Positions 32,846-37,639 of a stretch of DNA of 64,000 nt are shown here, piece by piece (within the stretch, counting starts at the first letter, position 1; each line of letters begins with the position of its first letter). The translations under genes were made by a program, and so were the position numbers. The notes beneath the pieces are model-generated. The model saw nothing but the letters and a program-made list of their open reading frames with translations. It was not told the origin of the DNA and did no database searches. Source of the stretch: an uncultured Prochlorococcus sp. (lineage in GTDB: Bacteria > Cyanobacteriota > Cyanobacteriia > PCC-6307 > Cyanobiaceae); NCBI GenBank assembly GCA_913048245.1, contig CAJWWR010000001.1, positions 19,918-83,917 on the forward strand. The letters are read 5' to 3'.

Positions 32846-34741
32846 ATGTGTGGAATAGTCGCTGTTACTGGATATAGAAAAGCTTTATCCCTTCTTCTTG
32901 ATGGATTAGAAAAATTAGAATATAGAGGCTATGATTCCGCTGGCATAGCAATTGTGAATTCTGAGAATAAGGAATTAGTTTGTAACAAATCAGAAGGTAA
33001 ATTAATTAATTTAATTAATAAAGTTGGTCAAAAGGAAATATTAGGTACAGTTGGCATTGGCCATACTCGTTGGGCAACACATGGTAAACCTGAAGTTAAA
33101 AATGCCCATCCTCACCTAGATAGTAGCGGAAAAGTTGCGGTAGTTCAGAACGGCATAATAGAGAATTTCTTAGAATTGAGAAATAAATTAGAGGAAGAAG
33201 GAATTATTTTTAAATCAGATACTGATACTGAAGTCATACCTCATTTAATAAATAAAGAGTTAAATAATTTAAAAAAACTAAATCTTGAAGATAGCGGTTC
33301 AACCCTCTTAATCGCAGTAAGAAATGTACTTTCAGATTTAGAGGGGGCTTATGCTTTAGCTGTTCTTTGGTCCGATGCCCCTGACTCCTTAGTTATAGCA
33401 AGACGTCAAGCCCCTTTGATTATTGGATTAGGAGAGGGAGAATTTATTTGTGCAAGTGATACACCAGCAATAGTTGATTTTACGCAAACTATTTTGCCTA
33501 TGGAAGATGAAGAAATTGCTTTATTAACTCCTTTGGGAATAGAACTTTACGATTCTAATAATGAGAGGCAATACAGAAATCCAATCTCCCTAAAATGTTC
33601 AGAACAAGTAGTAGATAAAAAAAACTTTCGTCATTACATGCATAAAGAGATTTATGAACAACCTGAGCTTACTCAAAAGTGGATAAAAAACTATTTAATT
33701 AAAAATAGTGAATCAGGTCTTATTAAAGTGAACTATAGTTTTGATACTAATTTTCTTGAAAATATTGAAAGAATTCAAATATTAGCTTGCGGTACCAGTA
33801 GACATGCTTCTATGGTTGGTAGTTATTTGTTAGAGCAATTTGCTGGTATACCTACAGATGTTTTTTATGCAAGTGAATTTAGATATTCCCCACCACCTAT
33901 TCTTCCTAATACATTAACCATAGGAGTTACTCAATCCGGGGAGACAGCTGATACTTTAGCAGCATTAAGTATGGAAATTTCAAGAAGAGAAGATCTAAAA
34001 GATGAATTATGTAAACCAAATTTAATAGCCATAACAAATAGACCAGATAGTTCAATAGGAAGACAAATATCTAATGTAATTGATATCTCAGCAGGTATAG
34101 AGATTGGAGTTGCAGCTACAAAAACTTTTTTTGGCCAATTATTGTCTTTTTATGGATTAGCTATTACCTTTGCACAGATTAAAAGAAGTAAAACAGATGA
34201 TGAAATTAATCAATTAATTTCTAATCTTGAAAATTTACCTCCACTTTTAAAAGAACTTGTGGATCAACATAATGAAATATCAGAAAAACTTGCCCATGAC
34301 TTTTCAGATATTAAAGATGTAATTTTTCTTGGAAGAGGAATAAATTATCCAATTGCTCTTGAGGGTGCTCTTAAGTTAAAAGAAATTAGTTATATTCATG
34401 CTGCTGGTTATCCAGCTGGTGAGATGAAGCATGGCCCCATAGCATTGTTAGAAAAAAAAGTTCCTGTTATATCAATTGCAACACCAGGAAAAGTGTTTGA
34501 AAAAGTTATTAGCAACGCACAAGAAGCAAAAGCTAGGGACTCATATTTAATAGGGATTGCTCCTAAATGTGATGGCACTGAAATTTTCGATTATTTGATG
34601 CCCTTACCTTTATCAGATGAATGGCTTTCACCATTATTGGCAGTTATTCCTCTTCAATTATTGAGTTATCATATTGCAGCCCATAGAGGACTGGATGTAG
34701 ATCAACCAAGAAACTTAGCAAAAAGCGTAACTGTTGAATAA
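32846..34741 (+). CDS. glmS: Glutamine--fructose-6-phosphate aminotransferase
   Basis: MCGIVAVTGYRKALSLLLDGLEKLEYRGYDSAGIA, SIS domains, DQPRNLAKSVTVE C-terminus. Confidence 0.99.
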   Translation: MCGIVAVTGYRKALSLLLDGLEKLEYRGYDSAGIAIVNSENKELVCNKSEGKLINLINKVGQKEILGTVGIGHTRWATHGKPEVKNAHPHLDSSGKVAVVQNGIIENFLELRNKLEEEGIIFKSDTDTEVIPHLINKELNNLKKLNLEDSGSTLLIAVRNVLSDLEGAYALAVLWSDAPDSLVIARRQAPLIIGLGEGEFICASDTPAIVDFTQTILPMEDEEIALLTPLGIELYDSNNERQYRNPISLKCSEQVVDKKNFRHYMHKEIYEQPELTQKWIKNYLIKNSESGLIKVNYSFDTNFLENIERIQILACGTSRHASMVGSYLLEQFAGIPTDVFYASEFRYSPPPILPNTLTIGVTQSGETADTLAALSMEISRREDLKDELCKPNLIAITNRPDSSIGRQISNVIDISAGIEIGVAATKTFFGQLLSFYGLAITFAQIKRSKTDDEINQLISNLENLPPLLKELVDQHNEISEKLAHDFSDIKDVIFLGRGINYPIALEGALKLKEISYIHAAGYPAGEMKHGPIALLEKKVPVISIATPGKVFEKVISNAQEAKARDSYLIGIAPKCDGTEIFDYLMPLPLSDEWLSPLLAVIPLQLLSYHIAAHRGLDVDQPRNLAKSVTVE

Positions 34742-34981
34742 TATCCAAAGTGATAATTAAATATTCAAAGCTATGTAAATGTTTGGAGTGTGAGATTATT
34801 TACTAATATTGAAAAAATGGCAATATAAACTGTTATTTAATTTCTGATGATAATTGATTTTTTTTATTACTTTTTTTAAACAAGGTGATTTAGAAGTGAA
34901 TTAGTTTTTTGGAAATTATATTTTTATTAGATTCTTCTTAAATAAAAAGTAGTTTATAATCATCAATAAATTTGTTCAGTT

Positions 34982-35644
34982 ATGTGGGAAAAAACTAAAA
35001 ACTTAGCAAACTTAGATGTTGGTAGTTATCGAAGTGTTTTAGGTTATGCAGGAGAATCTATAGCAATTGGTAGGGCATTAGTTTGTGGATATAATTTATT
35101 TTTTAAAGCTTGGAGGGATGCTAAATATGATGCTGTTTTAGATTCAAAAAATAATCTTTTTCGTGTAGAGATCAAACAAACGAGTGGCGATTCAAGTTTG
35201 ACACTAACTTCAGGTGGAAGGGGAGGTAAACAGATAAGAGATGAAGTTAAAAAAGGTGATGAATCTAGAGAAAAAGTTTTATCAACCGCTGACTGCGATT
35301 TTGTTATTGGAGTACAGTCTTTAAGAGGAAATTGTTGGATAATTCCTGTTGAGCTTCTTGAAATTCTTGGAAAGAAATCTATAACCATATCTCAACTTTC
35401 TATTTTTGATGAAAAATGGAAAGTTTTCGATTTTGAAACAAAAAATATAACAGTAGAAATGATTAAAAAGGGATTTAAGGATTTCTCCTCTAATCAATTA
35501 GAGGATCTATGTAAAAAATTAAATATCTCAATTCCTTCTAATGATTCAGAAATTAAATTAACAAACCTTGCAAAACCAGTGAAGGTAAATAAACATAAAA
35601 GAATGATTTATGAGATTTGGATGCATATTTTAAGCCATTGCTAA
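34982..35644 (+). CDS. Putative restriction endonuclease, PD-(D/E)xK superfamily
   Basis: GYAGESIAIGRALVCGYNLFFKAWRDAKYDAVLDSKNNLFRVEIKQTSG: a G-E-A-like helix, then D-(x)n-E-x-K. Directly upstream of a DNA methyltransferase on the same strand. Confidence 0.68.
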   Translation: MWEKTKNLANLDVGSYRSVLGYAGESIAIGRALVCGYNLFFKAWRDAKYDAVLDSKNNLFRVEIKQTSGDSSLTLTSGGRGGKQIRDEVKKGDESREKVLSTADCDFVIGVQSLRGNCWIIPVELLEILGKKSITISQLSIFDEKWKVFDFETKNITVEMIKKGFKDFSSNQLEDLCKKLNISIPSNDSEIKLTNLAKPVKVNKHKRMIYEIWMHILSHC

Positions 35645-35710
35645 TTTTTTATTTGATTAAGTTGTTTAGTAAAAATAAAAATTAGGTTGACAAATAAATC
35701 AAATATGTTG

Positions 35711-35724
35711 CCATATATGTATGG
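35711..35724. promoter_or_regulatory. Candidate operator: inverted repeat CCATA-TATG-TATGG overlapping methyltransferase start codon
   Basis: CCATATATGTATGG; 5-bp arms exactly complementary, 12 of 14 positions symmetric; ATG at 35721-35723. Confidence 0.35.
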
Positions 35725-37061
35725 ACAAAAATAGCAACTCAAAAATACAGTTCAGACTCCCAAATGATCTCTCTAAGAATTTTAAAATTGTATGTCAACA
35801 ATTGGGTGTAAAACCCTCTGAAAAATTAAGAGATTTAATGTGTGATTTTTTAGACAATTATGAGACTGAAGTTTTAAATAGAGAACCTTATATTTTCCCA
35901 AACTTAGTCAAAAAATCTCAATTTAATAAATTTTCCATTGGTGAAATGTATTGTGGTCCTGGTGGCATTGGATTAGCCGCCAAGAAATCAAAATTAATAG
36001 CCAACGGTAATAAATATGGTTTTGAGCATATTTGGGCTACAGATAATCATAAAGACACATGTATGACTTTCCAATCAAATATTTCATCACCTAGAGATAA
36101 AAATTTTAAAGTTATTTGCGAAGATATAAGCGATAGTTTGGTAGAAAAATTGCCTTACGTAGATGGCTTTTTATACGGCTTTCCATGTAATGACTTTAGT
36201 AATGTTGGAGAATCAAAGGGATTGGATGGAAAATATGGCTCTTTATATTCTTATGGAGTTAGCTATATAAATAAAAATAATCCAAAATTCTTTTTTGCAG
36301 AAAATGTATCTGGTTTATCAAATGCTAATTCAGGAAAGGCTTTTCAAAAAATATTAGATGAATTAGCTAACGCTGGTAATTTTGGTTATGAATTAACACC
36401 GCATTTATATAAATTTGAAGAATATGGTATACCTCAAGCGAGACACAGATACATAATAATTGGTATTAGAAAAGATTTAAAACTTAAATTTAAAGTACCT
36501 GAACCAACTCATATAAATGATTTTAAGAATTGTAGTCAAGCAATCTTAAATCCGCCAATTAATAATAAATGTGCAAACAACGAATTAACTAAGCAAAGTC
36601 GTAATGTTATTGAACGTCTAAAACACATAAAGCCAGGGGAAAATGCATGGCAAGCAAATCTTCCAGAGAATTTAAAATTAAAAGTTAAAAGCGCAAGGCT
36701 ATCTATGATTTATAAAAGATTAGATCCTGATAAGCCTGCATATACCATTACTGGTAGCGGAGGAGGAGGTACTCATATGTATCATTGGTCTGAAAATAGA
36801 GCTTTAACTAATAGGGAACGTGCTCGATTACAAACTTTTCCTGATGAATTCGTTTTTCATGGATCTAAAGAAAGTGTTAGAAGACAAATAGGTATGGCAG
36901 TACCAGTTGAAGGAGCCAGAATTATTTTAGAAGCAATTTTAAAGACTTTTGCAGAAATTAAATATGCATCTGTCGAATCTAGTTTTATAACTAAAAAATC
37001 TCATAATGTTTTTAAATTTGATCAATCTGATAATGATGAAATAATTCCAGAAGCAGGTTAG
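35721..37061 (+). CDS. DNA (cytosine-5-)-methyltransferase with N-terminal ribbon-helix-helix-like segment
   Basis: Motif I MYCGPGGIGLAA, motif IV GFPCNDFSNVGESKGLDG, motif VI FFAENVSGL, motif VIII GIPQARHRYIIIGIR, motifs IX/X TNRERARLQTFPDEF...RQIGMAVPVEGA. N-terminus IQFRLPNDLSKNFKIVCQQLGVKPSEKLRDLMCDFLDNY. Confidence 0.93.
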   Translation: MDKNSNSKIQFRLPNDLSKNFKIVCQQLGVKPSEKLRDLMCDFLDNYETEVLNREPYIFPNLVKKSQFNKFSIGEMYCGPGGIGLAAKKSKLIANGNKYGFEHIWATDNHKDTCMTFQSNISSPRDKNFKVICEDISDSLVEKLPYVDGFLYGFPCNDFSNVGESKGLDGKYGSLYSYGVSYINKNNPKFFFAENVSGLSNANSGKAFQKILDELANAGNFGYELTPHLYKFEEYGIPQARHRYIIIGIRKDLKLKFKVPEPTHINDFKNCSQAILNPPINNKCANNELTKQSRNVIERLKHIKPGENAWQANLPENLKLKVKSARLSMIYKRLDPDKPAYTITGSGGGGTHMYHWSENRALTNRERARLQTFPDEFVFHGSKESVRRQIGMAVPVEGARIILEAILKTFAEIKYASVESSFITKKSHNVFKFDQSDNDEIIPEAG

Positions 37062-37099
37062 ACATATTTAAATAAAAAAATTTACGAAAAATAAAAAAT

Positions 37100-37639
37100 T
37101 TAAAGTTCTAATAGACCCTTTGGGGGATTTATAATTAAGAATTTATTTTTTATATCTATCTCTGGGATTATTTCATTTACAAAAGGTACTAAAACCTCTT
37201 TATTTGTTTCAATAAGTCTTATTGTTAATAAACTATTTTTTTCATTATTAAAGTCGCATACTTCTCCAATGATTTTTAATTCGTTATTTTCAAATATTTT
37301 TACTTTTAAGTTTATGAGTTGAGACATGTGAAATTCTCCTTCTTTTAATGTGGGTATGTCGTTACTTTTAACTAATAATTTATAATTTCTAAGGCTTTCA
37401 GCTGAATTTCTGTTATTGATGTTTTTCAAACTAATAATAAAAATATCTGTACCTGGTTTGTGTGAACCGGAAATTAGTTCATAAGAGATAGGATCTTCAT
37501 TATTTATTCTTAGCCATCTTTCTCCAGGTTTCGTAAATCTTTCTTCGAAGTCACTTAAAGATTTAACTTTTAATTTACCATCAATGCCATGGGGTGATGT
37601 TATTTCTCCAATAATTAGCCATTCATCTTGACCTGCCAT
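37100..37639 (-). CDS. rimM: 16S rRNA processing protein RimM
   Basis: [29 protein letters not shown]-terminal [30 protein letters not shown]. Confidence 0.96.

Follow-up and report, generated by a model that had tools for sequence, protein, structure and literature searches.

A Prochlorococcus C5-cytosine DNA methyltransferase with an N-terminal ribbon-helix-helix domain that probably serves autorepression

The window analysed here (64,000 nucleotides of DNA from an uncultured Prochlorococcus sp.) carries two genes between glmS and rimM: a 220-aa ORF, hereafter R, and a C5-cytosine DNA methyltransferase, hereafter M (Table 1). The catalytic domain of M is intact. PF00145 (DNA_methylase) was matched at full length in a Pfam profile search (residues 71-408, E 5e-70), motifs I, IV, VI and VIII are all there, the PADLOC type II methyltransferase was matched too (E 1e-110), and Foldseek gave M.HaeIII as the best PDB match (E 1e-21). 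The nearest relatives of the M gene are from Prochlorococcus. In front of the catalytic domain lies an extension which the sequence-only reading had put at about 53 residues; the extension is real and starts with the residues quoted there, but is about 69 residues long when measured from the PF00145 start. Its last part is a linker, of low pLDDT at residues 55-63 in the AlphaFold model, that differs between strains by a 3-residue indel.

Table 1. Features of the glmS-rimM interval and its flanks, in window coordinates
Feature	Position	Strand	Basis or remark
glmS	32846-34741		Flank of window R and M
Segment exchanged relative to L002/L010 (window R and upstream DNA)	34743..35685	.	BLASTN
Putative type II restriction endonuclease (R), 220 aa, PD-(D/E)XK-like (EIKQ)	34982..35644	+	PDDEXK_5
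Promoter/operator candidate	35686..35727	+	GTTGACAAA, variable spacer, TGCCATATATGTATGGACA
C5-cytosine DNA methyltransferase (M) with N-terminal RHH extension	35721..37061	+	ORF, 446 aa
RHH domain, M residues 7-45	35739..35855	+	Strand KIQFRLP, helix A, G-V-K-P-S-E turn, helix B
Linker, M residues 49-68	35865..35924	+	Weak constraint, low model confidence
M catalytic domain, residues 71-408	35931..36944	+	Motif I GPGG, IV PCN, VI ENV, VIII QARHR
rimM	37100-37639	-	Flank of window R and M

Profile comparison supported the identification of this extension as a ribbon-helix-helix (RHH) domain. Aligned with hhalign to an RHH_1 profile built from 15 cyanobacterial matches to PF01402, the M N-terminus gave a gapless alignment over residues 7-45 with a probability of 93.7 % and a score of 34.3. 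Controls scored far lower: at most 14.1 for 60 column shuffles, at most 18.7 for 400 natural 69-residue fragments of the window's own proteins, and at most 18.6 for methyltransferases headed by a helix-turn-helix (HTH) domain. Library searches returned weak matches to RHH families. Pfam RelB, an RHH antitoxin, matched residues 6-37 (E about 0.01, under the gathering score) and was also a weak match in NCBIfam; weak PHROGs matches comprised CopG-like and Arc-like repressor families along with PHROGs of unknown function; and the two best PDB profile matches were NikR and RelB, each weak alone. No single RHH match in these libraries reached a curated cut-off, and profile searches gave no HTH match in the segment. 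Both AlphaFold (AF2) models placed helices at residues 19-28 and 34-52, where an RHH fold would have them. The ribbon strand was absent from the AF2 monomer, and Foldseek gave no match with the isolated N-terminal model. Since RHH domains are obligate dimers, neither of these outcomes supports or refutes the ribbon. In the strand KIQFRLP, K8, Q10 and R12 point outward and I9, F11 and L13 inward, an alternation expected of a DNA-contacting RHH ribbon (PMC10853773; also established RHH knowledge). The RHH domain, proposed from the letters alone, is thus well supported by the profile score against its controls and by the two modelled helices.

With one genome searched per species, the RHH extension was found in three Prochlorococcus genomes: that of the window and those of strains SCGC AAA795-J16 (L002) and AG-347-B23 (L010; locus divided over two contigs), whose extensions are 81-85 % identical to the window's. 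In eleven further relatives (51-64 % identity; genomes and viral contigs), as in nearly all of 57 viral-contig loci, the methyltransferase begins just a few residues ahead of the catalytic motif, without the extension. As dozens of relatives do without it, the segment lies outside the standard methyltransferase fold, of which the sequence-only reading had allowed that it might be a part.

A survey of C5-methyltransferases for fused RHH domains, suggested with the same reading, covered 294 ORFs from 276 loci. At least 35 residues precede the core in 25 of the 294 (22 distinct sequences), and the identifiable N-terminal domains, besides the Prochlorococcus RHH, were HTH domains of the XRE or MerR type. 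An RHH score above 19 was reached by Prochlorococcus sequences only, the RHH head being found in Prochlorococcus M alone; because the set consists mostly of viral contigs and cyanobacterial genomes, RHH heads may exist elsewhere. Two contigs (L057 and L061) encode members of M's own methyltransferase family with a clear HTH_3 (XRE-type) N-terminal domain, and by this sequence evidence the family has independently gained HTH domains. These HTH-headed ORFs (L057:4677-6080 and L061:4683-6077) adjoin a 614-aa ORF that is similar in both contigs, and a PLD/NgoFVII-like ORF lies near the one in L057.

Other architectures were noted besides. Four other Prochlorococcus genomes (L018-L021) encode a different C5-methyltransferase with a MerR/HTH_17-like N-terminal segment of about 70 residues (weak Pfam match in L019, E 0.001; none in L018), which is another candidate self-regulator. 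At L025:406-2658, two C5-methyltransferase units apparently stand in tandem within a single ORF (751 aa or more), and a protein of about 340 aa that is common in Prochlorococcus genomes (L139-L149) has a weak RHH_1 match. We found no other fusion of the M N-terminal domain in the phages, plasmids, viral contigs and 400 family genomes searched, and among open-access papers none reporting an RHH domain fused to a C5-methyltransferase. The fusion search yielded only weak stand-alone similarities, to an annotated RHH protein (L097) and to an RHH-like ORF of 55 aa in a genome of the same family (L038:1471-1638, minus strand; 29 % identical to the M N-terminus); an ORF of the latter type is a possible kind of source for the fused domain. 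A single plasmid match was set aside, being without RHH support.

Codon substitutions between the window and AAA795-J16 follow the architecture of the protein. Residues 1-48 gave a dN of 0.066 and a dS of 0.38 (dN/dS about 0.17), the linker at residues 49-68 a dN of 0.16 and a dS of 0.24 (dN/dS about 0.68), and the catalytic part a dN of 0.039 and a dS of 0.41, so that the ratio is low, high in the linker and low again, the pattern of a domain, a linker and a domain. On this evidence residues 1-48 are translated and under purifying selection, which argues against a start codon inside the segment. A true start further downstream, the other doubt raised with the sequence-only reading, is also hard to reconcile with residues 1-18, where dN is 0 and dS 0.24. 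No extra conservation of synonymous sites was found in the first M codons.

All three systems in which M bears the RHH extension lie between glmS and rimM. We compared this site (34742-37099 in the window) across loci L098-L118 and L160: in 17 of the 18 other Prochlorococcus loci, the three carriers left out, glmS and rimM are adjacent, 26-48 bp apart. The remaining one, G110, has an unrelated C5-methyltransferase and a 267-aa ORF in the gap, indicating that the site received restriction-modification (RM) genes more than once.

The gene beside M differs among the three carriers. The 220-aa protein of the window matched PDDEXK_5 below the gathering score (E 3e-4), and its sole detectable homologues are two phage or prophage proteins (25.7 % identity, E 6e-9 and 4e-8), each from a gene cluster in which a DNA methyltransferase is encoded as well. 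R is co-directional with M, upstream of it and outside the conserved promoter block. In AAA795-J16 and AG-347-B23, M has instead a divergent partner, a PLD endonuclease of the NgoFVII family (PF09565, E 1e-17); endonucleases of this family also stand beside several distant M relatives, and two PLD-family enzymes, NgoFVII and AspCNI, cut GCSGC (PMC4081073). The window locus resembles NgoFVII-type RM systems in the company its M relatives keep, and departs from them in that a PD-(D/E)XK-like protein takes the place of such an endonuclease. In a BLASTN comparison with AAA795-J16, homology of the window DNA breaks off at the glmS stop (34742) and begins again where the conserved block starts (35686); the promoter block was therefore retained with M across a change of R gene, and the exchange, as read from the alignment, ends exactly at the putative M promoter. 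No remnant of an NgoFVII-type gene was found in the window interval.

This change of neighbour leaves room for the view that M is an orphan in the window strain, its RHH domain a relic of the NgoFVII-type system and the 220-aa protein unrelated to its specificity. A search of the window genome (1.1 Mb, about 78 % complete) did not find the usual NgoFVII-type partner, and the other Prochlorococcus genomes searched (genus set) did not yield the 220-aa gene. Against this, the homologues of the 220-aa protein keep company with DNA methyltransferases and purifying selection continues to act on the RHH segment, and we consider an orphan M rather unlikely; it would in any case be compatible with the explanation of the RHH domain that we favour below.

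The block upstream of M (35686-35727) is identical in the three strains save for its spacer, and we found no second copy of it in the window. Within the block, positions 35711-35724 form an inverted repeat, CCATA-TATG-TATGG, that runs across the M start codon. The operator candidate CCATATATGTATGG is conserved, yet statistically unremarkable alone: a repeat as good as CCATA-TATG-TATGG occurred in 311 of 2000 random 60-mers of the window (16 %). The TTGACA element would put the start of transcription near the ATG, and a standard scan recognised no good -10 box for it. From its sequence, the block is a candidate only for the operator of M.

According to a review, autorepression by methyltransferases is mediated by an N-terminal HTH (PMC3874152). 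In M.SsoII, residues 1-71 regulate and residues 72-379 methylate (PMC3978073); the N-terminal 71 residues of M.SsoII and M.Ecl18kI bind a 15-bp quasi-palindrome, repress the methyltransferase gene and favour that of the endonuclease (PMC3978073, PMC3695355). M has the same plan as these enzymes, which represent the third mode of RM control: an N-terminal region of about 70 residues that would bind DNA, with a linker, and then the C5-methyltransferase. The divergent R gene of AAA795-J16 and AG-347-B23 is a further likeness. The head of M is RHH-like, however, and not HTH, the window R gene is co-directional, and operator and repression, shown for M.SsoII and M.Ecl18kI, are proposed for M. M.EcoRII, M.ScrFIA, M.MspI and M1.LlaJI are autorepressing C5-methyltransferases as well, repression of the own gene being the mechanism we propose for M, and their regulatory N-terminus is again HTH (PMC3874152) whereas that of M is RHH.

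With a module of the repressor and antitoxin type at its front, M probably switches down its own gene. Most likely, two molecules would pair through their RHH strands, or assemble on DNA, and occupy an operator where their own gene begins, probably the conserved CCATATATGTATGG / GTTGACA block (35686-35727). RNA polymerase would thereby be blocked, and the level of M would stay low and steady. In relatives with a divergent R gene, binding could also shift transcription towards R, as with M.Ecl18kI. Autorepression through RHH instead of HTH is, by analogy, the best inference, because the known autoregulating C5-methyltransferases share the size of the N-terminal DNA-binding domain and because M's own family independently gained HTH domains.

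The same domain might instead serve the enzyme itself, through dimerisation or extra DNA affinity for search or binding, and not control transcription. RHH domains dimerise, non-specific binding would grow stronger with a DNA-binding domain fused to the enzyme, and N-terminal mutations in M.Ecl18kI change methylation too (PMC3695355); moreover, the operator is a candidate only and its repeat is common by chance. We nevertheless judge a purely enzymatic role unlikely, given that relatives methylate without the extension, that a conserved block sits at the start of M's own gene, and that like domains fused to characterised methyltransferases are regulators (PMC3978073, PMC3874152). It is very improbable that the extension is a helix-helix segment of some other kind or an HTH of non-canonical form. 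Such a reading draws on the weak single-sequence scores, the unmodelled strand and the empty Foldseek search. Against it stand the RHH profile score (34.3, with maxima of 18.7 among natural fragments and 18.6 among HTH-headed methyltransferases), the polar-hydrophobic alternation of the strand and the recurrence of RelB, NikR, CopG and Arc among the weak matches.

We favour, with good though not full confidence, the reading that M is the modification component of a type II RM system, has acquired an N-terminal RHH domain and represses its own gene. The proposal of the sequence-only reading that the RHH module replaces a C protein is in keeping with the locus: no separate C-protein ORF (of at least 60 aa) lies between glmS and rimM in the window. 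C-protein systems share with M a DNA-binding regulator dedicated to the RM system, but here the regulator would be part of M itself and of a different fold. M also recalls RelB/ParD-type antitoxins, RelB being the best Pfam match of its head. In these, likewise, the RHH is N-terminal and the C-terminal region neutralises a toxic partner; the corresponding region of M is a DNA-modifying enzyme and not a toxin-binding segment. Because RHH is a widespread fold, the likeness is no sign of common descent, and a review notes that homology between RM and toxin-antitoxin systems has gone undetected (PMC3874152).

Self-regulating methyltransferases have so far been described with HTH heads. If our reading is true, the RHH head of M would show that a known control circuit has also been realised with another DNA-binding fold, which toxin-antitoxin repressors use too. 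Tentatively, M with its antitoxin-type RHH head and its own promoter might even be a portable, self-regulating unit of protection, retained at its site as restriction enzymes with unrelated folds replace one another next to it. The M gene and promoter kept next to an exchanged R gene offer a natural test of whether self-regulation gives tolerance of new restriction partners.
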